Both the position numbers and the translations under genes were made by a program. Positions 2,416-28,700 of a DNA stretch of 64,000 bases are shown piece after piece (position 1 is the stretch's first letter; every line of letters starts with the position of its first letter). Below the pieces are notes generated by a model. It was not told where the DNA came from, ran no database searches, and worked only from the letters and a program-made list of their open reading frames with translations. Source of the stretch: Crateriforma spongiae (GTDB lineage: Bacteria; Planctomycetota; Planctomycetia; Pirellulales; Pirellulaceae); NCBI RefSeq assembly GCF_012290005.1, contig NZ_JAAXMS010000002.1:930001-994000 (forward strand). The letters run 5' to 3'.

Positions 2416-2464
2416 GATCACCTCGCACACAAAACGAAAATAATTGCCCAGCCCCGTAACAAAA

Positions 2465-2538: not shown

Positions 2539-2585
2539 CCACGAATTCTACTAGCACTTGCTTGGTTCAATCTGACAACAAGAAG

Positions 2586-5648: not shown

Positions 5649-5876
5649 ATGCAAGCTGGACTGTTTGGCATCGGGCTCGATACCTACTGGTCGCAGTTTG
5701 ACAACCTGCTGGAGAACTTGACGGGCTATCGATTCAGTATCGGCGTAAAGGCATTCATAAACCAATGGTTCATGGGCGGGCCCGCCCATCACTGTGCCAT
5801 CGGAGTCGGACACATCGCCGGAAAGATCAGAAAGCTCGCCAAGCTATTGAGAACCGAAGTTCATCAAGTCTGCTAA
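5649..5876 (+). pseudogene. internally deleted L-fucose/L-arabinose isomerase-type remnant
   Basis: The 75-aa frame begins MQAGLFGIGLDTYW, followed by a short stretch ending NLTGY. This resembles the N-terminus of L-fucose/L-arabinose isomerase family proteins (about 450-500 aa). After roughly 30 residues it jumps to FINQWFMGGPAHHCAIGVGH and on to a stop, which resembles the extreme C-terminus of the same family. The whole middle, including the metal-binding and catalytic residues, is missing, while both ends stay in one frame. I read this as one large internal deletion, so the product cannot be an active isomerase. A short new gene is possible but less likely. It lies 54 bases before a GH78 gene. 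Confidence 0.6.
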
Positions 5877-5930
5877 CGCATTGTCGTAGCAAACGCCACA
5901 TCAAGCCTACCTTCACTGTCCGTCGAACCA

Positions 5931-8900: not shown

Positions 8901-9182
8901 GAAACTTGTTGGAAAGCGGCTGAACCAAACCATCAGTGGATCGAAGTATCGTGGCTGAAACCACAAGAATTCAGCCGCGTCGTCATCCAGGAACAGGGCG
9001 ATCACATCACCAGCTACAAGGTATTGTATTGGACAGGAAGCGAGTGGAAGAAGCTTGTTGCGGGAGGTGAATGTGGGCGAGATCGAGTTCACGAATTCAG
9101 TCCGGTCAAGTCCACCAAATGTCGGTTGTTGATCCCAGAAGCCGCCGCGGCACCGACCATCTGTGAGTTTCAGGTGAATTGA
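5931..9182 (+). CDS. alpha-L-rhamnosidase, GH78, with C-terminal F5/8-type domain
   Basis: This 1083-aa exported enzyme starts with MTLLPDDPKHL and a hydrophobic signal segment (TSILLFAIFAVLTSTSHA). The Ig-like domain (RCEYRVDPLGI...PRLSWKI) is followed by the lectin-like domain and the GH78 barrel with DCPHRERRGW (Asp517, acid Glu522) and TWPERW (base Glu around residue 801). The last 140 residues or so (from roughly 945: ENRETCWKAAEPNHQWIEV) look like a discoidin/F5-8 type C carbohydrate-binding module, an addition not present in the other GH78 proteins here. It is 54 bases downstream of the isomerase remnant and 58 bases upstream of a sugar isomerase-like gene, consistent with co-transcription. 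Confidence 0.88.
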   Translation: MTLLPDDPKHLTSILLFAIFAVLTSTSHATVQLTDLRCEYRVDPLGIENIHPRLSWKIIDSDKTRGQKQTGHRILVASKENKLKQNIGDLWDTGLVPGAQSVNNVYNGTSLSSGQQCFWKVCITDASGKLSDWSPIARFTVGLLDPTDWKGEWVYKADQEKTDHNWYRKSFKLYQEPRSAFVYVASFGYHELYVNGEKVTDNVLNPVASFMKKRIPYLTYDVSDYLTTGDNVIAIWHAAGWARWRRTPEYRSVPFVFKAQVEIATNENELSFGSDESWKCKKSYSSYFGDWDVLDFGGEIIDDRLHEEDWNRADYDDSGWGNARVYRASDLNAKFPDGQTVTIAINSTKDRTLNVGPYTDIEAELTAQIVQPQVRFKEVKPIEVKDNHDGTYRIDMGENYTGFFEMHLYDGTEGESVFFEISDRTEVTMNWNQKSQYIFGKSGKGRFTNRFNVAGGRWVTVYGLSSQPHLDDISGYVVTCDRPQVSKFECSNDLLNRIYQVNLNTYLANTLDGILMDCPHRERRGWGEVTVAAMYGDALPNFDSGAYMEQYLQFQRDAQLHDGQVRAVINEQDRPFLMWKANSPITVWETYKVLGDPKVLEDNYQAMQRWMQWLHNASDYQTGGALKIGTQGAREFPGLGDWCTPRGNFWDSSNSPDAAHFNNCVYAYMLSCAGNIAKALGRTDDAHTYADRLKAQQQATHRQSYDPETGKYLDGKQVDQAFALLAGVTPESEKAKVRAQLVENLLYTFPYYDTGSSGQALYTRYFVEHGERMDLVYELLRDRHHPSYGYFIEQGKTTWPERWSAVGNSQIHTCYTGIGAYFIKGIGGIRVDPDHAGFKQFLIKPAPVGDLAYANTQYESMHGNIVVNWRRDGTAATYHIEVPPNTSATVFIPATDKQHVRESDVLAEKSEGVTFVGGEPSDAVGHYVVYQVDSGVYNFYVDELPEPRFPDPLAKTSNLSTIGRMNASSMFIESEKLPGFEAFKANDENRETCWKAAEPNHQWIEVSWLKPQEFSRVVIQEQGDHITSYKVLYWTGSEWKKLVAGGECGRDRVHEFSPVKSTKCRLLIPEAAAAPTICEFQVN

Positions 9183-9240
9183 TTGGTAGCAACCTGACCC
9201 GGCCATCCCGTTGGACAACCCTAAGAGCGAGCAATAACAG

Positions 9241-10164
9241 ATGATGCGACGAAGAAACCTGCTATGCGCCTCGTTGGCGACTGCGTTGTCACCGCTTTGT
9301 ATGCGGTCCACTGGGGTTTGCCATGCTCAGGATACAGACCAATCGAGAGTGAAAAGTAACGTCCGATTGAAACTGGGGCTTAATGCATTCACTTTCAACA
9401 CAGCACTGATCTCAGGGGAGATGACACGCAACGATGTGATCGACTTCTGCTGCCGTCATCAGATTGATGGGGTGGATATGACGGGATACTACTTTTCACA
9501 GTATCCGGAGGTTCCCGACGATCAATCGCTGTTGGAGTTCAAGAAGTATGCCTTCGAGAATGGTGTCATCATCAGCGGGACGGGCGTAAAGAATGATTTC
9601 TCAGTGGCCGATTCGGAGCTATTCCAAAAGGAAGTGCAGTTAGTCAAAAGCTGGATCCCCGTGACGGCCAAAATGGGAGGCGATGTGCTGCGAGTCTTCT
9701 CCGGGAAAAGATTGCCCCAATCCCAGGACCGCAACGCCTGTTTTGATCGAATGGTTCAAGCATTTCGAGACTGCGCAAAGATGGCCGCTGACCATGGCGT
9801 GATCCTTGGTGTCCAGCCCCATCATGACTTTCTGAAAACGGCCGATCAGACCATCAAACTGCTCGACGCCGTGAACGAACCTTGGCTGAGGGTCGTGTTG
9901 GATACCGGCAGTCTGCGAAACGAGTATGTTTATGATGAAATCGAAAAGCTGTTACCCTATTCAGCGACGTGGCAATTAAAAAAAGATGCCTGGATCGACG
10001 GAACAATGATGCCGGTCGATCTGCCTCGGATCAAGTCGATCATCCACAAGGTTGGCTATCGTGGCTTTTTGCCATTCGAGCTAACAGGGAGCTTTGATGA
10101 TTTGGCCGCACGTCGCATGGAGGCCACAGACTTTTGCACATTGATCCAAGAAAAACTTCTCTGA
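9241..10164 (+). CDS. sugar phosphate isomerase/epimerase (xylose isomerase-like TIM barrel), exported
   Basis: This 307-aa protein has a twin-arginine-like N-terminus (MRRRNLLCASLATAL) followed by an AP endonuclease 2/xylose isomerase-type TIM barrel. Visible barrel phrases include LGLNAFTF, IDGVDMTGYYF, GVQPHHD, VLDTGSL and FLPFELTG. The acidic and His residues in these phrases are the expected metal ligands. Planctomycetes carry many such proteins with export signals and mostly unknown substrates. The position behind the GH78 genes suggests a role on a released sugar or sugar acid. The ATG at 9244 is an equally good start. Confidence 0.75.
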   Translation: MMRRRNLLCASLATALSPLCMRSTGVCHAQDTDQSRVKSNVRLKLGLNAFTFNTALISGEMTRNDVIDFCCRHQIDGVDMTGYYFSQYPEVPDDQSLLEFKKYAFENGVIISGTGVKNDFSVADSELFQKEVQLVKSWIPVTAKMGGDVLRVFSGKRLPQSQDRNACFDRMVQAFRDCAKMAADHGVILGVQPHHDFLKTADQTIKLLDAVNEPWLRVVLDTGSLRNEYVYDEIEKLLPYSATWQLKKDAWIDGTMMPVDLPRIKSIIHKVGYRGFLPFELTGSFDDLAARRMEATDFCTLIQEKLL

Positions 10165-10482
10165 TTGCATGATCTCACTCGGAGCAAAACTCCGGATCAG
10201 CATCTTGCCTTCATGCCTAGGCATCGTGATTCAGCGTCGCGACTGTCCAAGCAACTCGCCGCAGCGGAACGAATGAAATCCAACAAAGTTCCGATGAAGA
10301 AATAGAGAGTCGCGCTGGGTGAGTCGCGTAGGAACCAAGTCAGAGACCGACACAAATGCGATTCTCGATTCGCAGGTTTTGAGAACCGCAGATTTGATGC
10401 AATCAGGTGATTGACGCTGGCAGACCGAATCGGCATGGCCTCTGACCTGAAATACGTTGAAACAGGCTGTCTCTGCAGGTGG
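10165..10482. other. convergent intergenic region, no gene seen
   Basis: This region lies between the 3' ends of the isomerase-like gene and the BNR_4 gene. A 97-codon minus-strand frame (10197-10490) has no recognisable family features and overlaps the end of the BNR_4 gene; I see no convincing gene or terminator. Confidence 0.4.
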
Positions 10483-11862
10483 CTATTCAAGCTTCACGTC
10501 GATCACAGTGATATTCTTGCCTTTTTGGCCGATGATCGATGTCCAACCGTCGTGTGATGGGCGTTGGAGATCGAGTGACAACTTGCTGTCTTCGAAGGTG
10601 GATTCAAAACCAGATGCGAGGACCTTGAATTTCGTCGGATCGGCTGGGTTGGTTCGATAGAAAGTGTCATTGGATACAAGGTAAAGGTTGCCATTGTAGG
10701 TCAAAAGCTTTCCAAGCTGTGGCGCTTGCATTCGTGTCCAATCGCCGGCTTGGGGATCACGCTGGTAAATCGTCGGATCGCCGTTAGGGCCGCGTGCCAG
10801 AACATGAACTCGGCTTTCCTCGTCGACGACCATCGACCCGCCGTTGCGATAGCCGTGTCCAGGCGGGATCTTCATGACAGTGATGCCGGTGCTGTCGGCA
10901 GTGATGAATTCGAGACCGCGTGTTGCGACCAACCTCCCGTCGTTGTTACACCAATGAATCCCTCCGTCGTCACTGTAGGCGTAGCAAAGGTCGTGTGAGG
11001 TGCGATGATCCGGGTTGTCTCGCCAGCACCACGTCAAGTGGCATCTACCGTGTTGGAACACCAACCCAAACGGATACGCGTTCACGGTTCCGTCACCACC
11101 AGACCAACGTTGGTCGATGAACTGACTGGACGGTTCATCACGCGGTGACCAAGATCCGCCTGAGTAATGAAACAGATGTGAGTTTGCGGCCCCGGACCCA
11201 CCACCGAGGCGCAGGTACAACAGCATCGAATTGCCGTGCGAGACGAAACTCGGATACGTCACGCTTTCTAGTTTGGGAGCGGTTTGGTCGACGATCTTCT
11301 GAGCGTCATTGCGGTGGCTGCGACTGTCTATGATTCCCAAGTGATTTTGAACGATCCCGAACAATTTCTCGTTCCAAACGACCCGTTCTGGGGCCTTGGC
11401 GATTGGTTGGATACTGCGGCGATACCGCAGAGTTGACAGGTGGTGGTCAAACGACAGATGAATATAACCATCGGACGAGATCCCCATTGCAACCTTCTCG
11501 TGACCGTCTCCGAATCCGCGTGAGATCACGCCGCCCTTTCCGCGATCGCCAGTGCTGGTCCGTTGGTAATCGGATAAAGACACGACAGCCCAGGGACCAT
11601 CCGGCAGCTTCCGTCTGGCTACCGAAACCTGCTTTGCGTCATCCCAGTAGGCGGCATATTGCCAACCGCTGAACGTCTGAAGTGCCCCCGGGCCGAAGTT
11701 CCATTGTGAATGCCGATCCACAATATCTAAAGGCATGCCGTTTTCAGAAACCAACGAACGCTGGATACCGTTTGCCATCAGACCCGTTACCGCAGGAGCA
11801 TCAGCGTGCAATAGGCATGATTGAAGAAGTAGTGCAATGGACGCAACGTGTCTCGCGATCAT
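10483..11862 (-). CDS. BNR_4 repeat (beta-propeller) protein, secreted
   Basis: This 459-aa protein starts with a Sec signal (MIARHVASIALLLQSCLLHA). It contains the BNR_4 family landmarks: GWQYAAYWDDAKQVSVARR, HEKVAMGISSDGYIHLSFD followed by HHLSTLRYR, and later blades with NGGSMVVDEESRVHV. BNR_4 proteins are seven-bladed propellers; some relatives are polysaccharide lyases such as the PL24/PL25 ulvan lyases, others have no known function. It is transcribed away from the GH78-GH10 gene and lies within the rhamnosidase block, so a lyase or binding role on a rhamnose-containing glycan is plausible but unproven. Confidence 0.75.
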   Translation of the reverse strand: MIARHVASIALLLQSCLLHADAPAVTGLMANGIQRSLVSENGMPLDIVDRHSQWNFGPGALQTFSGWQYAAYWDDAKQVSVARRKLPDGPWAVVSLSDYQRTSTGDRGKGGVISRGFGDGHEKVAMGISSDGYIHLSFDHHLSTLRYRRSIQPIAKAPERVVWNEKLFGIVQNHLGIIDSRSHRNDAQKIVDQTAPKLESVTYPSFVSHGNSMLLYLRLGGGSGAANSHLFHYSGGSWSPRDEPSSQFIDQRWSGGDGTVNAYPFGLVFQHGRCHLTWCWRDNPDHRTSHDLCYAYSDDGGIHWCNNDGRLVATRGLEFITADSTGITVMKIPPGHGYRNGGSMVVDEESRVHVLARGPNGDPTIYQRDPQAGDWTRMQAPQLGKLLTYNGNLYLVSNDTFYRTNPADPTKFKVLASGFESTFEDSKLSLDLQRPSHDGWTSIIGQKGKNITVIDVKLE

Positions 11863-12464
11863 CTTGTTTCCGTTCAGAGTTCCACTGGAATATCAAACGC
11901 TCTTGCGTCGACGCCATTATCACGGATGAATCAACGGTTCTTAGTTCATTCGAGTGTCAGATGCCGAGCGTGAATTCTACACCGATTCATCCACCACTCT
12001 GTTCGGCGACCGAGATACCTTTCGCGCCTGGGAATCCAAAACGGTCTTGCTGCAGAACTTGACCGAGGACCGACACATTTTTCGCGACGAATCACCAACG
12101 GTCGTTGACAGCACAACGCGAGGCGATGCGGCTTCGCCTCCGACGAGGTTTGCACCAAGCGGCTCTTGCGACAACATCGGGTACAGAAATCAGAAGACCA
12201 AGAAACTGGACGAACCAGCGTACCAACATCGCCCTACTTCTTTCAATATTCCAGTCGTCCCTGGCAACCGAGGGACGACTCCGGTGACCTAGAAACCTTT
12301 GCACGGAAACAGCCCACACCGGAAGGCCTTCGGGCAGGCGGTACTATCGTGCTAGTTTCCGATTCGATTGTCCAGGTTTTCATCGACCTCACGGCTAAAC
12401 TGCACCTTGGATTGGGAGGCGTCCAAGCCTCCAACACCAGAATGAACAAGCAGCGAACCGTGTG
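11863..12464. other. divergent regulatory region between BNR_4 and GH78-GH10 genes
   Basis: About 600 bases contain no convincing gene. A perfect 10-bp inverted repeat (AGTCGTCCCT, 8-nt loop, AGGGACGACT) lies at 12253-12280. Nearer the start, CTTGGA (12406-12411) can pair with TCCAAG (12422-12427), while GGAGGC (12415-12420) can pair with GCCTCC (12427-12432). These two stems are mutually exclusive and lie 33-59 bases before the GH78-GH10 start. Confidence 0.5.
12253..12280. promoter_or_regulatory. perfect 10-bp inverted repeat in GH78-GH10 leader region
   Basis: The arms AGTCGTCCCT and AGGGACGACT are perfectly complementary with an 8-base loop. It lies 185 bases upstream of the GH78-GH10 start and far from any upstream gene end, so it is more likely an operator or leader structure than a terminator. 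Confidence 0.4.
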
Positions 12465-15400
12465 ATGAAAAACTTTCGACCCGTTTTCCTGTCCGCATTG
12501 TTTCTATGGGCAGGGTCTGCGCCGAGCTTTTCCGCCGGCCTGCAACCTCATTCGCTGACGGTGGGAGAAGGGTTTGCCGACCCGATTGGCTTTTACGATC
12601 CCTCACCTGTTTTCTCATGGAAGTTGCCGGCGGATAGCGGTGTGACTTCCCAGTCTGCCTATCAGATCATCGTGACGGATGTTCCTCAAACTCGGGCAAC
12701 ACCGCTTTGGGATTCAGGAAAGATCGTGTCGGATCAATCCACATGGGTGCCCTACAGTGGTCCGGCGCTAAAGTCTCGCCAGCAAATCGTTTGGCGAGTC
12801 CGATTTTGGGATGACCAGGGCCGCCGTTCGCAATGGAGCAATGATGCGACCATTGAGATGGGACTGTTGTCCAATTCCGATTGGAAAGCGGACTGGATTG
12901 AGGTCGAAGGCGAAACGGCAGCGGCGGATGAAATCACGATCTTGAAAGCGGAGTACGGAAGTCGTGAAGGAACCTCTGCGCAAGTGGTCGACGTCACGGC
13001 CCGACTGTCCAGAGCCATCGATCGCGGCGTTATCCCGTTCCCTGTGACGAACGCGAGACTGGGCGGAGATCCGGCGCCAGACACCGCCAAGACCTTGTGG
13101 GTCGAATTTCAGTTCAACGGCGTAACGAAGAAGGCGACCGTAGCGGAGAACAAGCGGTTCAGCCCGTTGCCGCCCTGGACGGCCCACCCCGGTTACTACT
13201 TCCGTCACAAATTTGACGTCCGCGCACCGATCACCAAAGCCAGGTTGTATGGATCAGCACTTGGCATCTGTGAATTTCATATCAACGGCCAACGCGTCGG
13301 CGATGACGTTCTGAGCCCTGGTTACACAGCCTATTCCAAACGAGTGGAATCGCTGGCTTATGACGTGACCGACATGATCCATGAAGGTGATAACGCTATC
13401 GGTGCCTTGCTGGGGGAAGGTTGGTACGCGGGACGATTGTTGCTGAGCAAGCCAACCGAGCTTCGAGAGTTGAATCCAAAACTGATTGGTCAACTGGAGC
13501 TTACATTCGCAGACGGAACCGTCGAAACGATCACAACTGACGATACGTGGCGTGGGACCGATCAAGGCCCCATCCGGGCAGGCGGCTTTTACCATGGTGA
13601 AGACTACGACGCGACGCAAGAGTTGGGCAATTGGAATCGCCCCGACTACGACGATTCCGCTTGGAAACCCACCAAGTCAACCAAGCTGGACAAACAACGT
13701 TTGATTGTGCCGAAACGAATGCCGCCGGTCCAATGCATGAAACAAGTTGCGGCAACTCAGCTAACGGAACCCGAACCGGGGCGTTATGTCTTTGATTTCG
13801 GCCAAAACCTAGTTGGTGTTCCCGATATCAATATCCCTGTAATGAAAGGCGAGAAAGTTCAAATACGCTTTGCCGAGATGCTTCAACAAGATGGGTCGTT
13901 GTATACGGAGAACTACCGCAGCGCGCGATCTCAGGCGACTTTCCAGGCTGCCAAGGACGGGACGATCCATTACCAACCCTCATTGTCCTTTTTTGGCTTT
14001 CGATACGTGGAACTCAGCGGTTTGTCCGCAGGTGCGAAGCTGACGAAAGATGCGGTGGTCGCGAAGGTCCTACATACCGCGTTTCATTCCAGTGGTGAAT
14101 TCGCTTCGTCACACGACAAGTTGAATCAACTGCAAAGCAACATCCGCTGGGGTCAAATTAGCAACTTTGTAGATATCCCGACCGACTGTCCGCAGCGGGA
14201 TGAGCGACTCGGCTGGACCGGTGACGCACAGGTTTTCTTGCCAACATCGTTCTTCAACTATGACGTCTACTCGTTCTGGGCACGCTGGCTGCAGAGTGTT
14301 CGCGACGAGCAAAACGCCGACGGCGAGATACCGCATACCGTTCCGGCCGGTGGATTCGGCTATGCCAGTCCCGGCTGGGCCGATGTGATCGTGACGGCAC
14401 CGTGGCAAATTTATGTACGTACCGGCGACCCTAGCATCCTGCATGACAATTATGCCGCGATGCAAAGATGGGTGTCCGTTTACGAAAACCGATCGAAGAA
14501 CCTCATTCCAAATCTGAAAGGCTGGGGCGATTGGCTGCAGCCGTACACAGAATCGGATCGCAAAGGTGACACGGCTCAAGATCTGATCGCGACGGCCTAC
14601 TTCGGTCGCGACGCTCGTATTCTGAGTTGGGCCGCCGAGGCCATTGGTAAAGAAGACGACGCGGCGCGTTACGAAAATTTGCACGCATCGATTCGAACGG
14701 CATTCACGAATCGCTACTTTCCCGAGAACGAAATTCACGTCGGCGCAGACACCCAGACTGCTTGCTTGATGGGTCTTGGCTACGACTTGATCGAAGCTGA
14801 TCAGCGGGATCGAGTCGCCGGAATCCTAATGACAAAATTCAAGGAAGCCGACCGACACCTGAGGACTGGATTCCTGGGCACGCCCTTGTTGGCCCCCGTG
14901 TTTGATGAACTCGGGCACCCAGAAATCTGCTACGAGTTGCTTTTCAAAGAAAGCTATCCGTCGTGGTTCTATTCGATCAATCAGGGTGCGACGACAATGT
15001 GGGAACGTTGGAATAGCTACAGCCATGCCGACGGTTTCGGCGACGCCAGCATGAACTCGTTCAACCACTATGCGTACGGCGCGATTGGTCAATTCTTGTA
15101 CGAGCGTGTCGCGGGCCTGTCACCTGATCCCGAACGGCCGGGCTACAAGCACTTCTTCGTTCGCCCGCTGGTCGATGGACCACTCGATTCAGCATCGGCG
15201 GAACTTGAAACACCCTATGGGACTGCTAAGAGCCAATGGCGGCGCTCCGACGACGGGATCATTGTCGAAGCCGTGGTGCCGCCGAACGCCACAGCGACGG
15301 CCGAACTTCCGGCGGACGGAGCGGTCGACATTCAGCACAATGGCCAAACAGTTGAAAAGACAACCACTGATGCGGACATGATCCTGGTCACGCTGCAGCC

Positions 15401-17237
15401 AGGAACCCATCGCTTGGCAATCAAAACGAGCCACGATTCACAACCGGATCAGATTGTGCCTCCCAAAGGTGGCCAACCCGCGATGTCGTTTGCCCCGCAG
15501 ACCAAACTGGAATTTGCATCCCAGAACGTAACAGCGGAAGCAGGATGGGCAGAAGCAACACAAATGCCATTCAGCGATTTGTACCGGGTTGAATGCGACG
15601 AACGCTTCACAACCCCATCCGACGTGAAGCTTTGCATTCCCATTGACGAAACGATCCAGACTGGCGACGTCGTTCTGGTTTCCTATTGGATCTGTCGCCC
15701 CAAAGCGGGCGGCCAACCGAACAACGTGTACCTTTCCATCGGCGATCCGTCTGGAAACGGGGTCTATCAAAACAAGCTGTCCGCATATCGAGAGTGGAAA
15801 CAACACGTTCGATCGTTCGTGGCAACGGAGACAATCGACGCATCGACCGACGTGGTTCGATTCGATCTTGGGGAAGCGGGCACGGTCGTGGAGCTCGCCG
15901 ATTTCCAGCTGGTCAATTATGGCAGTGACTACGACATCGAATCGCTGCCGAGATCGACCGTGATGTACGCGGGACGCGAAGAAGATGCTGCATGGCGAAT
16001 CAACGCGTGGGAGCGAATAGAGAAAATTCGCAAGGGCGACTTGGAGATCGAAGTTGTCGACGCCCAGGGCCAACCTGTACCCAATGCGAACGTCCATGTC
16101 GCCATGCAAAAGCACGCCTTTGGGTTTGGGAACGCGGTCAACGCCGAGATGCTGGGCGCACCTCAGAGCGACTTCCCCATCACCCCGAAGAAGAAAATTC
16201 CTGTCAGCTGGAACGACGCACAAAAGTACCGCGAAATCGTCAAGCAATACTTTGACCGCGTGACCTTCGAATCAGAACTTCGGCCGCATAATTGGCAAAA
16301 CTTGAGTTCAGACAATCCCGTCTGGCAGCGACGCAAAGACATTTTGCTGAACCGAACACTGCCATGGTTGCTTGAAAACAACATTGCCGCGCGAGGCCAC
16401 TACATCGGCTGGGCTCCAATGGACTTCAACGCTTTCGAAAAACAGTTCATCGGCAAACCGGACGAGCACCGCAAGTGGCTTTGGGGACACATGGCCGATG
16501 TATTGCCGGCCACCAGCCAGTACGTCAAAGAGTGGGATACGATCAACCACATCATCGGCTGGGGACAGCATACCTACGAGAAGGAATACGGGAGCCCGAA
16601 AATTTACGCCGACATCATGGCCGAAGCTCGAAGATTGGCTCCCAATGCATCGCATGCCATCAACGAAGGCAAAGTGCTGCCGGACGGTTACAAACGTGAG
16701 CCTTACAAAAAAATCATTCGTTACCTGAACGAACAGAACCAAGGCCCTGACATGGTTGGATTCATGGGGCACTTCGGATTGACATCGCTGACGCCTCCCG
16801 AAGAACTGCTGAGGGTTTACGATGAGTTTGGGACCATCGCACCGCGACTACAACTAAGCGAGTTTGATGTGGATGCAGGCGATGACGATGAACTCCAAGC
16901 CGACTACTTTCGCGACGTCATGATTGCTTCCTTCAGCCATCCGAACTTCGAAGCAATCTGCCAATGGGGATTTTGGGAGCCGTTACATTGGAAACCTGCC
17001 GCTGCCCTGTGGCGGAAGGACTGGACACTGAAACCCGCCGGAAAGGTCTTCGTGGATCTGGTCGCCAAACAATGGTGGACGGACGAAACACTGGTGACGC
17101 CCGACGATGGAACGTGCAAGACGCGAGGTTTCTTGGGCACGTACCAAATCACGGTCACGAGCGAGGGGATGACGGCGGAACAAACGGCCAGCCTGGAACG
17201 CAGCGGAACAACACTGCGGATACGGCTTGGCCAGTAG
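12465..17237 (+). CDS. GH78 alpha-L-rhamnosidase fused to a GH10-like domain
   Basis: This 1590-aa two-enzyme protein has a signal peptide (MKNFRPVFLSALFLWAGSAPSFSA); I chose the ATG at 12465 over the GTG one codon earlier. Residues to about 960 form a full GH78 protein with the canonical DCPQRDERLGW (Asp574, acid Glu580) and TTMWERW (base Glu847). A CBM-like stretch follows (about 1010-1160). The rest resembles planctomycete GH10-like proteins (KGDLEIEVVDAQGQPVPNA, then HAFGFG and a TIM barrel ending ICQWGFWE). The GH10 nucleophile motif is kept (LSEFDVD, Glu1466), but the acid/base motif reads WDTINH, placing His1362 where glutamate is expected. A non-standard or lost activity in this half is therefore likely. 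It precedes a sulfatase gene by about 90 bases. Confidence 0.87.
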   Translation: MKNFRPVFLSALFLWAGSAPSFSAGLQPHSLTVGEGFADPIGFYDPSPVFSWKLPADSGVTSQSAYQIIVTDVPQTRATPLWDSGKIVSDQSTWVPYSGPALKSRQQIVWRVRFWDDQGRRSQWSNDATIEMGLLSNSDWKADWIEVEGETAAADEITILKAEYGSREGTSAQVVDVTARLSRAIDRGVIPFPVTNARLGGDPAPDTAKTLWVEFQFNGVTKKATVAENKRFSPLPPWTAHPGYYFRHKFDVRAPITKARLYGSALGICEFHINGQRVGDDVLSPGYTAYSKRVESLAYDVTDMIHEGDNAIGALLGEGWYAGRLLLSKPTELRELNPKLIGQLELTFADGTVETITTDDTWRGTDQGPIRAGGFYHGEDYDATQELGNWNRPDYDDSAWKPTKSTKLDKQRLIVPKRMPPVQCMKQVAATQLTEPEPGRYVFDFGQNLVGVPDINIPVMKGEKVQIRFAEMLQQDGSLYTENYRSARSQATFQAAKDGTIHYQPSLSFFGFRYVELSGLSAGAKLTKDAVVAKVLHTAFHSSGEFASSHDKLNQLQSNIRWGQISNFVDIPTDCPQRDERLGWTGDAQVFLPTSFFNYDVYSFWARWLQSVRDEQNADGEIPHTVPAGGFGYASPGWADVIVTAPWQIYVRTGDPSILHDNYAAMQRWVSVYENRSKNLIPNLKGWGDWLQPYTESDRKGDTAQDLIATAYFGRDARILSWAAEAIGKEDDAARYENLHASIRTAFTNRYFPENEIHVGADTQTACLMGLGYDLIEADQRDRVAGILMTKFKEADRHLRTGFLGTPLLAPVFDELGHPEICYELLFKESYPSWFYSINQGATTMWERWNSYSHADGFGDASMNSFNHYAYGAIGQFLYERVAGLSPDPERPGYKHFFVRPLVDGPLDSASAELETPYGTAKSQWRRSDDGIIVEAVVPPNATATAELPADGAVDIQHNGQTVEKTTTDADMILVTLQPGTHRLAIKTSHDSQPDQIVPPKGGQPAMSFAPQTKLEFASQNVTAEAGWAEATQMPFSDLYRVECDERFTTPSDVKLCIPIDETIQTGDVVLVSYWICRPKAGGQPNNVYLSIGDPSGNGVYQNKLSAYREWKQHVRSFVATETIDASTDVVRFDLGEAGTVVELADFQLVNYGSDYDIESLPRSTVMYAGREEDAAWRINAWERIEKIRKGDLEIEVVDAQGQPVPNANVHVAMQKHAFGFGNAVNAEMLGAPQSDFPITPKKKIPVSWNDAQKYREIVKQYFDRVTFESELRPHNWQNLSSDNPVWQRRKDILLNRTLPWLLENNIAARGHYIGWAPMDFNAFEKQFIGKPDEHRKWLWGHMADVLPATSQYVKEWDTINHIIGWGQHTYEKEYGSPKIYADIMAEARRLAPNASHAINEGKVLPDGYKREPYKKIIRYLNEQNQGPDMVGFMGHFGLTSLTPPEELLRVYDEFGTIAPRLQLSEFDVDAGDDDELQADYFRDVMIASFSHPNFEAICQWGFWEPLHWKPAAALWRKDWTLKPAGKVFVDLVAKQWWTDETLVTPDDGTCKTRGFLGTYQITVTSEGMTAEQTASLERSGTTLRIRLGQ

Positions 17238-17328: not shown

Positions 17329-18768
17329 ATGCCCCACGCCGAACAGATTCCCTTCACAACACGTTGTCTCATTACCGCGTGCGTGGGCGTCGTGTTTGCC
17401 TTGCCGCTGCGAGCGGAAACGCATAGCGATGCAGCCAAGCCGAACATCGTCCTGATCCTCGCCGACGACCTGGGTTTCAATCAGATCGGAGCCTACGGCG
17501 ATACACCAATCAAAACACCGCACCTGGATCAGCTGGCCAGAAACGGAATCCGGTTCACCAATGCTTATTCGGGAAACACCGTCTGCTCTCCATCACGGGT
17601 GTCGCTGCTGACCGGGCGAGACGGACGCCTGTTGCACGACAATTCCAACAAAGTCCAACTGCGTGACATCGACGTGACGATCGCTCATGTCTTGAAGTAC
17701 GCAGGTTATGACACCGCCCTATTCGGTAAATACTCGGTTGGATCGCAGATGGGCGTCACGGATCCGTTGGCGATGGGATTCGACACATGGTACGGCATGT
17801 ATTCGATTCTCGAAGGCCATCGACAGTACCCACAGTTTCTTTGGCGCGATGGCCGGAAGATCCGCATCGCTGAAAACGAGGGGGGACGCAAAGGTGCCTA
17901 TGCGCAAGAGCTGTTTGCCGACAAGGCCATCGACTACATCGCACAACAACATCAAAACCCGTTCTTCGTGATGCTAAACTTTTCATCGCCGCACGCGGAA
18001 CTGGCGGCACCCGAAGAATTCGTTGCCCCCTACCGAAAAGTCTTTGACGAAACACCTTACTCGGGCATGTCCACTGGCGAACCGGCCGACAAATACGCTT
18101 GGTATTACCCCGAACCCGTTGACCAACCACGGGCGACTTTGGCTGGCATGGTGACCGCATTGGATGCGTACATCGGACGAATCGTCGAACGACTCCGGAA
18201 ACTGGGCATTGCGGACAACACGCTGATCCTTTTCACCTCCGATAACGGACCGCACGATGAGGGTGGTGGTGATCCCGAGTTTTTCAAAGCTGCCGCGCCC
18301 TACCGAGGCATGAAACGGGACTTGTTTGACGGAGGCATCCATGTGCCGATGATCATCCATTGGCCCGCCAGAATTCGAACGGGACGAGTGGATGACACGC
18401 CGTGGGCCTTTGCGGATGTGCTGCCGACGTTTGCCGAACTGGCTGGCGTTTCGCTGACCGCGGTTCCCCGCGTTCAAACCAATGGCATCTCCATTGATCG
18501 CCGCTTAAGCGATTCGCCGCAACCGATCGGCGAACGGATGTTGTATTGGGAATTCGGCAAACAAGCCGGCGACCCAAACTCGGGAATCGTCGGCGAGGTG
18601 TTTCAAGCGGCGCGTGAAGGTCGATGGAAAGCGGTGCGTTACGGGCTGGACCAACCAACCCAGATTTATGATCTCGAATCCGACCCTGGCGAACGGATGG
18701 ATCTTTCCAATCAGCGACCAGATCTGCACCAAAAATTCCAAGAACTTTTCGAGACGTACGCCCGCTAA
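17329..18768 (+). CDS. S1 family sulfatase, secreted
   Basis: This 479-aa sulfatase has a signal segment (CLITACVGVVFALPLRAE) after the ATG at 17329; the longer frame upstream lacks a sensible signal peptide. The N-terminal metal site KPNIVLILADDLG and the formylglycine motif CSPSR (Cys86) followed by LLTGR are intact. FTSDNGPHDEGG supplies further metal ligands. It should hydrolyse sulfate esters on a glycan; activity needs conversion of Cys86 to formylglycine by a maturation enzyme not found in this window. It lies directly behind the GH78-GH10 gene in the same direction, so a sulfated rhamnose-containing substrate fits. The specific S1 subfamily cannot be fixed from reading alone. Confidence 0.88.
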   Translation: MPHAEQIPFTTRCLITACVGVVFALPLRAETHSDAAKPNIVLILADDLGFNQIGAYGDTPIKTPHLDQLARNGIRFTNAYSGNTVCSPSRVSLLTGRDGRLLHDNSNKVQLRDIDVTIAHVLKYAGYDTALFGKYSVGSQMGVTDPLAMGFDTWYGMYSILEGHRQYPQFLWRDGRKIRIAENEGGRKGAYAQELFADKAIDYIAQQHQNPFFVMLNFSSPHAELAAPEEFVAPYRKVFDETPYSGMSTGEPADKYAWYYPEPVDQPRATLAGMVTALDAYIGRIVERLRKLGIADNTLILFTSDNGPHDEGGGDPEFFKAAAPYRGMKRDLFDGGIHVPMIIHWPARIRTGRVDDTPWAFADVLPTFAELAGVSLTAVPRVQTNGISIDRRLSDSPQPIGERMLYWEFGKQAGDPNSGIVGEVFQAAREGRWKAVRYGLDQPTQIYDLESDPGERMDLSNQRPDLHQKFQELFETYAR

Positions 18769-18801: not shown

Positions 18802-21228
18802 TCAATCGCCTGATTGCAGATCAACCTTCAGCAGTACCACGCCTTGTGAATTCAAAGACAAGTCGGTCCCAATGTCTTGGCCTGTCAACAAGTCCGTGAC
18901 AGAAACCGGCTTGTCGTGATCGAAGGCGATCTGTAGTTCGGCGTCGTGCTTACCCAGGTTGAGGATGCTGACCAAATAGCTGCCGTCGTCTTGCTTGACC
19001 GCTTGCCAACGACAGCTCTTGCGATCGCTGCCGTTGGCTTCGACCAATTTGAAGGGAGGCATGCTACTGGCGATTTTGCGGAGGGCAATGTCACGAATCT
19101 GCTTTGGACTTGGGTTGTTCTCCAGTAAAACCAGCCTGCCTTGGCCGGCTTCAAGACGCTTCGCATGTGGGTTTCCGTACTCGTCCTTGGCCAGACTTTT
19201 CTCCCCATCCACAATCACTGTCCCACCTTGATCCAAATACGATTGCAAAGCATCCAACTCTGCCACCGTCACGTACGGCGTGCGGTAAACGAGAATGGCA
19301 TCCCAAGACGCATTGTCTTGACTCTTGATGATCTTTTCCGTTGCAAATCCCATCGGAAAACCTTCAAAGAACAGCTCCTCGTACAATGCAAACTGCTCGG
19401 TCATGTGCGAACGTTTGTTGATGGCCGATGTTTCCGAGTGGAACAGTCGCAACGGCCGCCGCTGCTTTCGCAAAGCAATGACCTCTTCCGAGAAGCTGTT
19501 CAGATCCAACATGACCTGGGTATAGGCGTTGGCGATGTGTGGCTGTTGGTTGACCGAACCTGCGAAAGATCCTGCTAACGCCAGATCAGCGAAGTTCAGC
19601 TCGCCCTCCAAACGGTCTTCCGGCGAACCGTCAGGGTCACGAGCCCAGAACCAGGCGAAATTGGCGTCCATTCCGTGAAGCGTTGCCAACCAATAGACAC
19701 ACTTCACGTATTGCGTCGAAAGATCGAGCTTTCGCCAACGCGCTGCCGACAGAAAATGCGATTCCGAATTGATGTGGATGCTGTCCGGTGCGACGGATTC
19801 CATGAAATCGTAGGACATACAGAGCTCTTCCCAATAGAACGCATAGTGCTGTTCCCACGGTTCGGGTTCGTTCGTATAACTCCGTCGCGTCGGTCGTGCT
19901 TTGGCATCGTCACCGATGATGGACGTCAACTGCGTCAACGATTCGATATCAATACCATGCGCACGATCGTTGTCGGTATAGTGGTGCGGAATGAGTTTGA
20001 TGTGAGTGTCCGCATCCGGATTGCCCTTTCGCAACTCACTCTGAAGCAACCCATACCAGGCAATGACCCGGTCCATGTTGTAGCGTGCCCAATCGTAAAA
20101 GACCGGCGTGCCACGGGTCTGTGCAGAGATGGGTATTTGGATTTGGACGGTTTCGAAACCCAGAAACTGCGTCTCCCAATTTTGATTGAGCCGGTTGATG
20201 TCACCGGAATACTTTGCACGCAGCCACTGGCGGAATCCTTCCAGCGTGTAGGACGAGATCTGCTGCATCTCGCCGGTTCGCCGCGTCCAATTGCTCGCGA
20301 TCGAATGCCAATGCGGTTCATTGGCCAGAATGTATCCAAGCCGGGTCACCCTTTTTCCACGAGTCAGCACACCGGTTTCCCGGGCGATCGTTCCCCAGAC
20401 TTCTTTGACCAACGGGTTGTCGATATCGAATCCCGTGAACGTGCTGCGACCAAAACGCACCTCGGGTTCACGCCTCTGCACCCACTCGGGAATCCCCTGC
20501 ATCCAATACAACAAAAAGCCGACATTAGTGTCATCAATTTCCGTCACTTCTCGCAGCAATTCTTGATCCAGTGAACGATCTTCTTTCAACAGGAATGAGT
20601 TGATCGCACGATCGTATTCGGGCGGATACAGGTTTTCGCCGCCGTGATAGATCGCTCCCAAGTGATCGTTGTAGACGCCGCCATCGCTAAGTGGACGTCC
20701 GACAGATTTTGAGAAGTAGTCGTAAAGAAACACCGGCTTTCCGTGGCTCACCAGCATGTTGTCGCCGACTTCCACGTTTCGCCAATCGATCTTGTTGACG
20801 GGACGTCTTCGGATTTCGCCGTTGATGACCTTGGACAGCGTTTCGATCGCCTGGTCCAGTGTCACGACAACCATACGGCGTTGAAATTCAGGAATCTCTT
20901 TGGCCAGGGTTTCACTCTGCTGTTCGTAGGGTCCGTATTGGGCGAACAAATAGGCCACCTCACTTGGATGGTCTTCATCCCAATCGGCGAACTTCAGGAA
21001 CTGCTCGGCAAACCAGAGCGTTGATTCCTCTCGGGTGACATCCATTCCCTTGTCTTCGGCTTCCGCCATCCTTTCTTTTAGCACGCCCATCTTGCGGACC
21101 GCTTCCTTGGCCAAAGGATTTTCCACTTGGGTCACAACCGGCTTGTCACCGCACGCGTTTTCCGTGGCAACAGCCCAACCAAGCAGCACGCTTAAGACAA
21201 CGACGACATGGGATGGATTTATTCGCAT
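18802..21228 (-). CDS. GH42-like (clan GH-A) glycoside hydrolase, secreted
   Basis: This 808-aa protein begins with a signal peptide (MRINPSHVVVVLSVLLGWAV); the ATG at 21228 is four bases past the stop of the upstream regulator gene. The central barrel contains LGYILANEPHW (candidate acid/base Glu), FRQWLRAKYSGDINRLNQNW (typical of GH42 beta-galactosidases) and IHINSESHF (candidate nucleophile Glu). A trimerisation-like domain (YRTPYVTVAELDALQSYLD) and a C-terminal beta domain follow. An N-terminal region of about 150 residues is not part of standard GH42. Related families acting on red-algal galactans (GH167, GH50) are possible alternatives. It is co-oriented with the FadR regulator and likely acts on galactose-containing oligosaccharides. 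Confidence 0.7.
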   Translation of the reverse strand: MRINPSHVVVVLSVLLGWAVATENACGDKPVVTQVENPLAKEAVRKMGVLKERMAEAEDKGMDVTREESTLWFAEQFLKFADWDEDHPSEVAYLFAQYGPYEQQSETLAKEIPEFQRRMVVVTLDQAIETLSKVINGEIRRRPVNKIDWRNVEVGDNMLVSHGKPVFLYDYFSKSVGRPLSDGGVYNDHLGAIYHGGENLYPPEYDRAINSFLLKEDRSLDQELLREVTEIDDTNVGFLLYWMQGIPEWVQRREPEVRFGRSTFTGFDIDNPLVKEVWGTIARETGVLTRGKRVTRLGYILANEPHWHSIASNWTRRTGEMQQISSYTLEGFRQWLRAKYSGDINRLNQNWETQFLGFETVQIQIPISAQTRGTPVFYDWARYNMDRVIAWYGLLQSELRKGNPDADTHIKLIPHHYTDNDRAHGIDIESLTQLTSIIGDDAKARPTRRSYTNEPEPWEQHYAFYWEELCMSYDFMESVAPDSIHINSESHFLSAARWRKLDLSTQYVKCVYWLATLHGMDANFAWFWARDPDGSPEDRLEGELNFADLALAGSFAGSVNQQPHIANAYTQVMLDLNSFSEEVIALRKQRRPLRLFHSETSAINKRSHMTEQFALYEELFFEGFPMGFATEKIIKSQDNASWDAILVYRTPYVTVAELDALQSYLDQGGTVIVDGEKSLAKDEYGNPHAKRLEAGQGRLVLLENNPSPKQIRDIALRKIASSMPPFKLVEANGSDRKSCRWQAVKQDDGSYLVSILNLGKHDAELQIAFDHDKPVSVTDLLTGQDIGTDLSLNSQGVVLLKVDLQSGD

Positions 21229-21232
21229 GGGT

Positions 21233-22000
21233 TCATTCGTGAGATTGAACGGAAGATTCAGGTTGTGGATTTGGCAATAGTGTTGATGGACGCTTTCCAC
21301 CGCCCGCTTTTTTAATACGGGCTCGTGCGTCACCCAGCAACGTTCGCATCGCGTGATCTGCAGCGACCGAGTCGCGGTCCCAGATCGCTTGCATGACGGA
21401 TTGGTGCAGCGGAATGGACTTGCGGTTTTCGGCCGATTGACGATTGGTCACTCGGATGCTGGATTTCAAAGCAGCCCGGATCACGTTGGCGACCGGAGAG
21501 AAGAAGGGGTTGCCCGTGGCATGCAGAATCGACGTATGAAATCGCAGATCCGCCACCAGAAAGGCCTCCGCATTTTCCACCGCTCCTTCCATCGCCTGGA
21601 ACGCATCACGAATGGTCTGCAGCTGGTCATCACTGGCACACTGGGCGGCAAACGCCGCGGCGGCTGGCTCAAGACCGAGACGAAATTGAGTCAGATGCCT
21701 CAGCAGGCGTCCGTCGACGTCGGTTTGCGCCTGCCATTCCAACACATCGGGGTCCAAGAAATTCCAGGAAACGCTGGGTAAGACCGTGGTCCCCAGCTTT
21801 GCCCGCGATCGGATCAACCCCTTGGCGGCCAATGACTTGACGGCCTCGCGGATCACCGTCCGACTGACTCCCATTCGTTCGCACAGCACGCTTTCGTTTG
21901 GAATAGCCTGGCCTGGCTGGATCTCGCCTCCCAGGATCTGGCGTCCGAGATCGTGCACGATCTGCGCGCACAGGTTTTTGCGAATCGTCAAATTCTTCAC
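21233..22000 (-). CDS. GntR/FadR-family transcriptional regulator
   Basis: This 255-aa regulator has an N-terminal winged helix (NESVLCERMGVSRTVIREAV, then KSLAAKGLIRSR) and an all-alpha FCD effector domain (LGLEPAAAAFAA, DLRFHTSILHATGNPFF, HQSVMQAI). FadR-group members such as DgoR and UxuR respond to sugar acids or their breakdown intermediates. It is divergent from the sugar-acid genes starting at 22141, and the gap holds a perfect t-GT-n3-AC-a operator (22033-22043). It is therefore probably a ligand-released repressor of both directions. The downstream GH42-like gene follows after 4 bases, so the two are likely co-transcribed. Confidence 0.85.
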   Translation of the reverse strand: MKNLTIRKNLCAQIVHDLGRQILGGEIQPGQAIPNESVLCERMGVSRTVIREAVKSLAAKGLIRSRAKLGTTVLPSVSWNFLDPDVLEWQAQTDVDGRLLRHLTQFRLGLEPAAAAFAAQCASDDQLQTIRDAFQAMEGAVENAEAFLVADLRFHTSILHATGNPFFSPVANVIRAALKSSIRVTNRQSAENRKSIPLHQSVMQAIWDRDSVAADHAMRTLLGDARARIKKAGGGKRPSTLLPNPQPESSVQSHE

Positions 22001-22032
22001 CTCGTCTGCACACCGCCGGGTTGCACTTCTTT

Positions 22033-22043
22033 TTGTATTACAA
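22033..22043. promoter_or_regulatory. candidate FadR-type operator
   Basis: TTGTATTACAA is a perfect inverted repeat around one central base and matches the FadR-subfamily consensus TNGTNNNACNA at every fixed position. It lies 33 bases before the regulator start and 98 bases before the enolase-family gene, in AT-rich sequence. Confidence 0.6.
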
Positions 22044-22140
22044 TATGCTAATTAACGCTGATCGACAAGGCTAGCACGAACCGGCCGCACGCCGGGTCCG
22101 ATTTCCCGGGCGTTTCATTCACACCACGGCGTCAAGGAAC

Positions 22141-23307
22141 ATGAGTTCGACCACCAAGATTGCCACCATCCGGACCTACCACCTGCGTGACCATCTCGAG
22201 GAACCGTTCGGTTTTTCACAGTGGTATTACGACACTCGCAACACGCTGTGGGTCGAGATCGTCGCTGAAGACGGAACCACCGGCTGGGGCGAATGCTACG
22301 GTCCGTCGGAGGTTTACCAGACGGCAATCGATCGCTTCTATGCCCCGCGTCTGTTAGGCCAGGATGCGTTAGTAACGGACCGGAATTGGCAACTCATGTG
22401 GCGAGCCTCTTTGGACTTCGCACGTGGCGGCGTGATGATGGGCGCGATGTCGGGGATCGACATGGCCCTATGGGATCTTCGTGGCAAGATCCTGAATCAA
22501 TCGGTGTGTGAAATGATGGGCGGTCGCCATTGCGACACGGTTCCCTGCTATGCAACCGGGATGTATTTCAAAGACATGCCGGAAGACGACCTGATTCGAT
22601 CGATCGTCGATGAGGCCTCCTCCTATCAACAGCAGGGTTTTGCCGCGCTAAAAATTAAAGTCGGCAAGAACCCAAACTTTGATACTCAACAAGTCGAATC
22701 CCTTCGTCATGCCTTGCCCGACATGACGATGATGGCCGATTCGAATCATGCGTTTGACTTGCCCGAGGCGATCCGAATGGGTCGTGTCTTGGAAGCCAAC
22801 GACTTCCGATGGTTCGAAGAACCGCTGTCACCGGAGTTTGAGAACCAGTTTCGTCAGCTTCAAGACAAGTTGGACATTCCGATCGCCACCGGCGAATGTG
22901 AACAAACAAGATTCGGATTTGAACGTTTGCTCAGAACCGGTGGCGTTCAGATCGCACAACCCGACCTTGCGTATTGTGGCGGCCCTTCAGAAGCACTGAA
23001 GATTCGAACGCTGGCGTCGGCCAAAGGTATCAATGTCATCCCGCATGCTTGGGGGACAATGCTAAACCTGGCTTCGGCGACGCACTTCCTGGCCAGCGGC
23101 TATCGCGAACCGGGACGTAAGGAGATCGACGCGTTGATGTTGGAATTCGATCGCACTCCGAACGCGTTACGGGACGAACTTTTCGACGTTCCTGTCGTTG
23201 TCGAAAACGGTGTGGCCACTGTGCCAACCGGCCCGGGGCTGGGTGTTATCGTCAATGAGCAAAAGATGCAATCGTTCGTGGTCAACCGAACAGAACTGAA
23301 GGTCTAA
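22141..23307 (+). CDS. enolase-superfamily sugar-acid enzyme (cycloisomerase or dehydratase)
   Basis: This 388-aa protein belongs to the mandelate racemase group. It has KIK (Lys171, Lys173) for proton abstraction, metal ligands Asp200 (ADSN), Glu226 (FEEP) and Glu252 (TGECE), and His302 (IPHAW). Members act as sugar-acid dehydratases, or as cycloisomerases that open 3,6-anhydrogalactonate to a 2-keto-3-deoxy acid. The neighbours (aldose-type dehydrogenase, KDPG aldolase, KDG kinase, GH16, GH127) favour the cycloisomerase reading. A galactonate or rhamnonate dehydratase remains possible. It heads the operon opposite the FadR regulator and is cytoplasmic, with no signal peptide. Confidence 0.8.
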   Translation: MSSTTKIATIRTYHLRDHLEEPFGFSQWYYDTRNTLWVEIVAEDGTTGWGECYGPSEVYQTAIDRFYAPRLLGQDALVTDRNWQLMWRASLDFARGGVMMGAMSGIDMALWDLRGKILNQSVCEMMGGRHCDTVPCYATGMYFKDMPEDDLIRSIVDEASSYQQQGFAALKIKVGKNPNFDTQQVESLRHALPDMTMMADSNHAFDLPEAIRMGRVLEANDFRWFEEPLSPEFENQFRQLQDKLDIPIATGECEQTRFGFERLLRTGGVQIAQPDLAYCGGPSEALKIRTLASAKGINVIPHAWGTMLNLASATHFLASGYREPGRKEIDALMLEFDRTPNALRDELFDVPVVVENGVATVPTGPGLGVIVNEQKMQSFVVNRTELKV

Positions 23308-23423
23308 ATAGCGGCGGATTTCTGGTGGACGTGCCAACAAATCACCAAGCACAACGCCTGTTCTATCCCCCACCGCGATAGGAATCGACAACTCGTTTCC
23401 ACACGAAACTGAAAGCTTGAAAC

Positions 23424-24860
23424 ATGCCCGATCAAACGTTTTCACTGTGGGTCGACGGCCGGGCGACCCATACCGGCAAGACTTTCGAAGTCATCAATCC
23501 GGCGACGGAGGATGTCATTGCGGAAGTATCCGAAGTTGACGCCGATACGGTGCAGCGGTGTTTGGATTCCGCCAACAACGCATTCCCGGCTTGGTCCAAA
23601 ACACCACTTTCAAAACGCAAGGCGATCATCGATCGGTATGCAGAACTTCTAGAATCCCATCGCGATGAGATCGTTGATCTTTTGATCGCAGAAACCGGCA
23701 AACCCATCGACAACGCCGAGTACGACTTTGGCATGTTGACGACTTGCTTACGGTTTTTCTGCGAGGAAGCGGCGCGGATCGACCAACCGGTGATCCCTGA
23801 TCCGGATGGGAACTTTCTGAACTATGTTCTTCGTCAGCCATTGGGCGTGGTGGTCGGTTACCTGGCCTGGAACTTTCCTCTTTTGAACCTTGGCTACAAG
23901 CTCGGTCCCATCCTTGCCTCCGGCTGTACCGGGATCATCAAACCATCACAGTTGACCCCGCTGGCATCGCTGCGATGCGCCGAATTACTGGGCGCAGCCG
24001 GTGTTCCGGCGGGGGTCATCAACGTGATTGCCGGAACGGACTATGACGTCACAGGCCCACTGTTGGAAAGTGATATTCCGTCGATGTTTACGATGATCGG
24101 TTCGACGCGAGCCGGCGTGGGGGCGATGAAGTCCGCGTGCACAAACGTCAAACACTTCTCCGTCGAACTTGGCGGTAACGCCCCGGTGCTGGTGTATGAC
24201 GATGCCGACATCGAAGCCGCCGCCAACAGTATCGTCGACTTGAAATTCGCTAACTCGGGGCAAGTATGCGTTTCGCCCAATCGCTGCTTCGTCCACGAAT
24301 CGGTTTATGAGGAATTCATTACCAAAGCGGCCGCAAGAGTCGGCGGTATCGTGTTGGCAGCCGGTCGTGGCGAAGGCCGTCGGATGGGGCCGATGTTGAC
24401 GGGTAAATCGCGAGACCGGATGAGCCAACTGATCCAGTCGGCCATCGACAACGGTGCCTCGGTCGTTTGCGGTGGCAAAGCCCCGGAAGATCTTACCAAG
24501 GGATACTTTTTTGAGCCAACGATCCTGCGTGATGTCAAGAAAGACATGCAGCTATCATGCGACGAAATCTTTGGTCCGGTCCTGCCCGTGATTCCCTTTA
24601 GTGATGACGACGATGAAATCGCACTAGCCAATGATACGGAGTATGGGCTGGCCGCATATGTCTACACCACCAATCTGAATCGCGGGCTTCGCGCCGGGGC
24701 AGAAATTCAAGCGGGCAGCGTTTGCGTCAACGAAGTTCACTACGCCGTCCATCTGCCGCACGGCGGATTGAAGCAAAGTGGAGTCGGCAAAGACTGTTCT
24801 CGCTACAGCTTGCAAGAGTACCTGACACTGAAACGAGTCTCCGTTCGCGTCCCCTCCTGA
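23424..24860 (+). CDS. NAD(P)-dependent aldehyde dehydrogenase
   Basis: This 478-aa ALDH has the Rossmann region (LAWNFPLLNLGYKLGPILAS), the base Glu248 in ELGGN and the catalytic Cys282 in SGQVCVSPNR, with FGPVLPVIPF near the C-terminus. In this neighbourhood the likely reaction is oxidation of a free aldose, such as 3,6-anhydrogalactose, to its acid. That acid would be the substrate for the enolase-superfamily protein upstream. Succinate-semialdehyde-like or lactaldehyde activity cannot be ruled out by sequence alone. The ATG at 23424 is 116 bases after the upstream gene. Confidence 0.85.
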   Translation: MPDQTFSLWVDGRATHTGKTFEVINPATEDVIAEVSEVDADTVQRCLDSANNAFPAWSKTPLSKRKAIIDRYAELLESHRDEIVDLLIAETGKPIDNAEYDFGMLTTCLRFFCEEAARIDQPVIPDPDGNFLNYVLRQPLGVVVGYLAWNFPLLNLGYKLGPILASGCTGIIKPSQLTPLASLRCAELLGAAGVPAGVINVIAGTDYDVTGPLLESDIPSMFTMIGSTRAGVGAMKSACTNVKHFSVELGGNAPVLVYDDADIEAAANSIVDLKFANSGQVCVSPNRCFVHESVYEEFITKAAARVGGIVLAAGRGEGRRMGPMLTGKSRDRMSQLIQSAIDNGASVVCGGKAPEDLTKGYFFEPTILRDVKKDMQLSCDEIFGPVLPVIPFSDDDDEIALANDTEYGLAAYVYTTNLNRGLRAGAEIQAGSVCVNEVHYAVHLPHGGLKQSGVGKDCSRYSLQEYLTLKRVSVRVPS

Positions 24861-24978
24861 TTCGTCGTGAACGAAGGCACGAATCGCGGAATCTTAGATT
24901 TCTTACCTCGTCACAGAGTCCTGGAAACGCTTCGTCCTGCCGTGCTTCCTTCTGCCTGCCATTAAGAATTTTAGCTTG

Positions 24979-26723: not shown

Positions 26724-26749
26724 TCGAGAAAGAAATAGCAGGTAGCAAG

Positions 26750-28480: not shown

Positions 28481-28700
28481 AGTGATGCACTGCGTCGCAA
28501 ATGAACGACGGCAAGCAGACAATCCGATAGCGTCCTCGCCGCGTTGGCTTTGTTGGTGGCGTTTTCCAGCACCTCCCCACGGCCATGTCGGAACTGTCGG
28601 AAAATGCTTGCGACGAAACGACTGATTGGGACGCCGAAACATTCGGCAAGCTCCGATACGAAACGATTGGGCTGTGATCAAACACAAGGCGAAGCCACTC

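Follow-up and report, generated by a model that had tools for sequence, protein, structure and literature searches.

GH10 is a textbook two-carboxylate retaining family. Among described systems, the closest to the GH10-like domain considered here is the xylanase XynA (7d88/7d89/9rhv), which resembles it over the whole fold, including the N-terminal beta domain and the C-terminal extension, at 24% identity, and shares its nucleophile and WDxxN motif. The two differ at the acid/base position, which is Glu182 in XynA but His here; in the triplet that is NDY in XynA and NEG here; and in the QGH motif of XynA, whose Gln is Met here. GH10 barrels with His in the acid/base position are also known from the Xyn10A mutants N127S/E128H and T82A/N127S/E128H of Streptomyces olivaceoviridis (2d20, 2d22, 2d24, 5gqd, 5gqe). 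These are engineered, however, with the Asn before the His made Ser, whereas here the Asn is retained and a strand-5 Glu stands alongside the His. Such mutants were the only other GH10 proteins with this His to be found, and a search of open-licence papers gave no description of a natural His-type GH10.

Parallels to parts of the system exist elsewhere. In the GH117 anhydro-galactosidases the general acid is a His aided by a carboxylate (PMC11574756), an arrangement that a His-Glu pair here may resemble, but this is another family, acting on the alpha-1,3 bonds of agar, and no sequence relation to it is claimed. In the ulvan pathway of Formosa agariphila, the S1_25 sulfatase-GH78 fusion P36 likewise joins GH78 to an enzyme of the same pathway (PMC8511951), although the partner is a sulfatase there and a GH10-fold enzyme here.

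The gene analyzed lies in a 64,000 nt stretch of Crateriforma spongiae DNA, referred to below as the window.

Domain structure of the fusion protein

The ORF encodes a 1591-residue protein (Table 1), and its translation confirms the description given in an earlier reading made from the letters of the window (the sequence-only reading): a GH78 half, complete in all Pfam domains and motifs, fused to a GH10-like half. The start codon is ATG at 12465 or GTG at 12462; residue numbers used here count from the ATG, and counting from the GTG would make the catalytic residues His 1363 and Glu 1467 in place of 1362 and 1466.

Every domain of a GH78 rhamnosidase is present in the N-terminal half (6-hairpin domain, E 7e-111, Pfam), whose nearest solved GH78 relative is the rhamnosidase 3w5m (E 2e-188, PDB). 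The motifs DCPQRDERLGWTGD and MWERW can be read in the sequence; by its complete domain set and catalytic motifs (DCPQRDERLGW, MWERW) this half belongs with the GH78 rhamnosidases. For the CBM4-like module that follows, no sequence match was found among solved structures. Its predicted fold (AlphaFold2 pLDDT 93.4) is a CBM4-type beta-sandwich, with a fold-search match to CBM4-2 of the Rhodothermus marinus xylanase (Z 15.7, 2.4 A over 144 residues, 10-12% identity).

Residues 1251-1531 match PF00331, Glyco_hydro_10 (E 7e-19, Pfam), and the 444-residue GH10 unit is predicted with AlphaFold2 pLDDT 95.5 and pTM 0.92 to form the GH10 (beta/alpha)8 fold. GH10 xylanases head the fold search, the top structural match being 7d88 (XynA; Z 42.6, 2.1 A over 358 residues). 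The sequence-only reading had assigned the GH10-like domain to 16035-17237; GH10 is indeed there, but this range covers only part of the unit, the ancestral GH10 gene including the CBM4-like module from ~15411.

Table 1. Features of the fusion gene and its surroundings, in window coordinates.
Feature	Coordinates	Strand	Remarks
GH78 genes (three)	92-1969, 2472-5429, 5931-9182	+	Pfam
BNR_4 beta-propeller protein	10483..11862	-	nearest solved relative is an L-Rha-alpha-1,4-GlcA lyase
Fusion gene	12462..17237	+	signal peptide-like start, GH78 alpha-L-rhamnosidase, CBM4-like module, GH10-fold barrel with His at acid/base site
GH78 half	12549..15344	+	Ig_Rha78A_N, Bac_rhamnosid_N, Bac_rhamnosid, 6-hairpin, C-terminal domain; Pfam residues 30-961
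CBM4-like beta-sandwich module	15411..15938	+	~170 residues; once part of a separate GH10 gene
GH10-fold unit	15903..17234	+	small N-terminal beta domain, (beta/alpha)8 barrel, C-terminal beta extension
His1362	16548..16550	+	acid/base position, right behind barrel strand 4; column of E182 in XynA
Glu1401	16665..16667	+	at the end of strand 5 of the barrel; NEG in place of the canonical GH10 NDY; Glu in all His-type members
Glu1466	16860..16862	+	nucleophile, barrel strand 7; column of E280 in XynA
S1-type sulfatase	17329..18768	+	directly downstream of fusion; CSPSR motif; Pfam Sulfatase E 5e-63

Histidine at the acid/base position

The motifs WDTINH and LSEFDVD are both present, and the spacing of 104 residues between the catalytic positions, given in the sequence-only reading, is borne out by translation. 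Alignment by phmmer and with a 59-sequence profile places WDTINH on WDVNNE and LSEFD on VTEYD of the xylanase 7d88; since 7d89 is the inactive E182A/E280A double mutant of the same xylanase, the aligned columns are its catalytic pair. In the predicted structure, strand 4 comprises domain residues 208-215, with the His at 216, and strand 7 comprises residues 316-324, with the Glu at 320. A misaligned strand, with some other Glu at the acid/base site, is rejected on the strength of the pairwise and profile alignments and the strand assignment in the model. The claims that WDTINH is the equivalent strand, with His at the acid/base position, and that Glu1466 in LSEFDVD is an intact nucleophile therefore agree with the alignments to 7d88/7d89, in which Glu1466 pairs with E280 of XynA and is invariant. 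The structure prediction that had been suggested as a check is GH10-like, and at the level of sequence and secondary structure it offers no other Glu at the acid/base position.

Compared feature by feature with GH10, the domain has the Glu nucleophile on strand 7 (T/S-E-x-D), invariant in 59 sequences, but in place of the Glu acid/base after strand 4 (WDxxNE) it reads WDTINH, with His across the clade of relatives described below. The canonical -1/+1 residues (WH on strand 3, QxH on strand 6, NDY on strand 5) are likewise replaced, most of the clade having WA/WG, MxH, and NEG; the strand-6 His is retained in the clade, and many relatives with the usual acid/base Glu (Glu-type) also lack the strand-3 WH, having WP. 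Judged from the alignments and the model, the domain is a GH10 derivative by fold and ancestry; because WDxxNE is not conserved, the name "GH10-derived His clade" is used here rather than GH10 xylanase.

Distribution and ancestry of the His clade

Searches covering 98 relatives, 392 genomes of the phylum, and the GTDB contig collection yielded 90 nearly full-length domains, with contig counts biased towards His members by the inclusion of EWD[TA]INH[IV] among the two seed patterns of the contig scan; the phylum search was run without that seed. In a tree computed without the His and strand-5 columns, the His members (31, plus the remote member L109) all fall on one side of one branch (bootstrap 100, SH-aLRT 94). 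L109 reads WDITHP, keeping the His but not the residue before it. Members are mostly Planctomycetota and Verrucomicrobiota, and include Rhodopirellula maiorica, R. rubra, R. sallentina, Rubripirellula obstinata, Bythopirellula, Roseibacillus, Haloferula, Brevifollis, and Lentisphaerota bins; a split Spirochaetia record (L061) likewise reads WDTVNH. The homologue search proposed in the sequence-only reading thus returned a whole clade carrying the same His. Decay of a single gene or a sequencing error is rejected, the His being found in 32 relatives from many genomes.

Identity within the clade averages 51%, with a minimum of 30%. No variation is seen in the His, the nucleophile Glu, the strand-5 Glu, the strand-6 His, or the strand-8 Trp; just 35 of 441 columns are equally conserved. 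In the Glu-type relatives compared, the acid/base Glu is kept in 53 of 53. As read from these sequences, the acid/base Glu would have been replaced once by His, in a GH10-derived clade; this forms part of the best explanation, which taken as a whole has roughly an even chance of being right.

A second, unfused His-type GH10 gene is found in the same genome (G000:C5:234450-235805; L023, L039), at 53% identity. Outside the His clade, L123 has Asp in the acid/base column (WDVIND), as does L119 (WDVVAD), which also lacks the nucleophile Glu and may be a true pseudo-enzyme.

Coupled changes and selection

Sites in or near the active site, located by homology, were compared between 31 His-type and 53 Glu-type members. 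The acid/base His itself is present in 31/31 and 0/53, respectively. The strand-5 Glu is likewise universal in the His-type set (31/31) and found in 15 of the 53 Glu-type members, the remainder having Asp (37) or Asn (1). Met replaces the Gln of the QxH motif, two residues before the strand-6 His, in 97% of His-type members vs. 0% of Glu-type ones, and Gly replaces the Tyr/Phe after NE/ND in 90% vs. 2%. On strand 3, WA or WG is found in the His clade where Glu-type members mostly have WP. At the sequence level, these coupled changes are the signature of a rebuilt active site, not of one lost residue.

The carboxylate at the end of strand 5, invariant in the clade and different from the Asp of most Glu-type relatives, could conceivably have taken over the acid/base role, leaving His1362 as an auxiliary residue that binds sulfate or carboxylate or tunes the pKa in what would still be a retaining glycosidase. 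Relatives with a normal acid/base Glu can also have Glu at the position of Glu1401, however, so another role for it is compatible with the data, and such a shift is considered fairly unlikely.

Of all parts of the fusion protein, the barrel is under the tightest constraint. Relative to the congeneric G001, dN/dS is 0.058 for the barrel, 0.136 for GH78, and 0.395 for the CBM-like module; with TBK1r as the reference, where synonymous sites approach saturation, it is 0.043, 0.083, and 0.187. This bears on whether the barrel is catalytically dead and retained as a lectin-like, sugar-binding targeting module for the GH78 half, as the absence of the acid/base carboxylate and several other -1/+1 residues unlike those of xylanases might suggest. 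Against such a module stand the invariance of the nucleophile Glu, strand-6 His, and strand-8 Trp and a dN/dS below that of the GH78 partner; moreover, most members are unfused to any other enzyme and already have a CBM4-like module. A dead barrel is thus an unlikely explanation. The sequence-only reading had offered a changed mechanism, a sugar-binding role, or lost activity: the first is favored, because the His and the nucleophile are invariant in the clade and purifying selection is strong, lost activity is disfavored, and pure binding is possible but weaker.

Origin of the fusion and gene neighborhood

Among the loci seen, the fusion occurs in three genomes only, and so is rare, as had been supposed: this one (G000), G001, with 96% identity in the GH10 part, and Planctomycetes bacterium TBK1r (L042). 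Elsewhere in the clade the His-GH10 is mostly a gene of its own, ~430-730 codons long and usually encoding the same CBM-like module as well. L043 and L045 each carry, ~150 bp upstream of the His-GH10 gene and in the same orientation, a gene that matches the GH78 half of the fusion, and in L047 and L051 a match to it is found near the His-GH10 gene. The simplest origin for the fusion is from two adjacent cooperating genes. This two-gene ancestor, the clade itself, the coupled strand-5 Glu, and the Gln-to-Met and aromatic-to-Gly exchanges are additions to the sequence-only reading.

GH78 genes are found near 12 of 28 His-type loci (two of the 12 being fusions themselves) vs. none of 39 Glu-type loci, and S1 sulfatases near 16 of 28 vs. 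1 of 39, a contrast confounded by taxonomy because the Pirellulaceae are rich in sulfatases. Four of the six GH78 domains of this genome fall within window positions 92-17237. The sulfatase directly downstream of the fusion has close homologues near the His-GH10 gene in L043, L048, and L081, and the BNR_4 protein has homologues near those in L043 and L047. No GH78 or sulfatase was found near the second genome copy (G000:C5, L039) in the stretch examined. A search of this genome for GH88/GH105 gave no match, so that no evidence is seen for the usual lyase pathway of ulvan breakdown.

Other neighbors may be further partners: in Bythopirellula the His-GH10 gene adjoins a GH106 rhamnosidase gene (L046:9404-12937), and in Rubripirellula it adjoins a GH2 gene (L055:9697-12405). 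In the window, positions 18802-21333 (- strand) encode an 843-residue protein with weak Pfam similarity only (Melibiase_C, below cut-off) and no NCBIfam match; this gene also adjoins the fusion in G001. A row at 21233-32239, consisting of a GntR/FCD regulator, enolase-superfamily dehydratase, aldehyde dehydrogenase, KDPG-type aldolase, PfkB kinase, GH16-like protein, sugar transporter, and GH127, lies beside the rhamnosidase genes and looks like an oxidative sugar-acid catabolic cluster.

Possible mechanism and substrate

In ulvan, beta-D-GlcA, alpha-L-IdoA, or beta-D-Xyl, 1,4-linked, alternates with alpha-L-Rha3S, and a GH78-sulfatase fusion acts on this polymer (PMC8511951). To hydrolyze an ulvan-type chain, an alpha-L-rhamnosidase has to take turns with a beta-D-glycosidase, a pairing that the two halves of the fusion would match. 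The barrel has most likely stayed a retaining beta-glycosidase, and the favored reading gives it a His, or perhaps a His-Glu pair, as acid/base for cutting beta-D-(1,4) linkages to L-rhamnose within a rhamnose-rich, sulfated glycan; the chances for and against this combination of catalysis, dyad, and substrate are about equal. Doubtful, and offered tentatively, is the proposal that the clade is a natural GH10-fold family whose His-Glu acid/base would hydrolyze bonds of the type beta-D-glycosyl-(1,4)-L-rhamnose-sulfate; GH10 is not known to have such an activity or such a catalytic set.

In the proposed mechanism, Glu1466 would attack the anomeric carbon, while His1362, in its protonated form, would protonate the leaving oxygen and afterwards, once neutral, activate water. 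From the neighboring strand, Glu1401 may act as partner to the His and adjust it in the way that Asp does in the His/Asp dyads of GH117 and GH3 NagZ. As target, a beta-D-sugar (xylose or glucuronic acid) 1,4-linked to L-rhamnose-3-sulfate or similar in an ulvan-type polymer is likely. With L-rhamnose-3-sulfate in the +1 site, the sulfate would lie next to the scissile oxygen, where it would repel a carboxylate; an imidazole would not be repelled, and the aromatic-to-Gly exchange would make room in the site. Every other linkage, the alpha-L-rhamnosyl one, would fall to the fused GH78, and an alternating copolymer would be clipped by the two halves in turn.

Precedents for a His general acid are the His/Asp dyad of GH117 and the GH3 beta-N-acetylglucosaminidases (PMC11574756). 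In the GH10 barrel itself, Xyn10A N127S/E128H gave trapped Michaelis complexes and covalent intermediates (PMC5811086; 5gqd/5gqe). Since the E128H mutants trap intermediates, a lone His is probably a poor acid/base in a normal xylanase, and the natural clade presumably needs its other changes for turnover. A published assay of a protein from the clade did not turn up.

A His in place of Glu could also let an anionic acceptor reach the glycosyl-enzyme, as has been claimed for the His-type GH3 N-acetylglucosaminidases, making the domain a retaining phosphorylase or transglycosylase. Work by Macdonald in 2015 reportedly links the His acid/base of these GH3 enzymes to phosphorolysis. The fusion has a signal peptide-like start, however, and would be expected to be exported to where phosphorolysis is less useful, and no sugar-phosphate enzyme is tied to the clade, making this quite improbable.

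A barrel turned lyase or dehydratase, with the His as base acting on uronic acids of the polymer, has parallels in the uronate dehydratases of the ulvan and chondroitin pathways, one of which was first filed as glycoside hydrolase GH154 (PMC8511951, PMC12269599). The nucleophile Glu and strand-6 His are fully retained, though, as a hydrolase requires, and a GH88/GH105 partner is missing from this genome; such a conversion seems very unlikely. The ulvan dehydratase P29_PDnc was considered as an identity for the domain and rejected, the available part of its paper making no link to GH10. For the retaining beta-glycosidase favored here, ulvan is a candidate substrate polymer, the counter-points being the absent GH88/GH105 match and the second copy without such neighbors.

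Implications

The automatic annotation of His-clade proteins as beta-xylanases is probably wrong; the clade is a candidate enzyme for beta-linked bonds to sulfated rhamnose. As a natural clade minus one carboxylate and still under strong selection, it lends itself to a direct test of why some glycosidases use histidine. The presence of the His in a whole branch suggests that a textbook active site has been rebuilt for an unusual, probably sulfated and rhamnose-rich, sugar chain.
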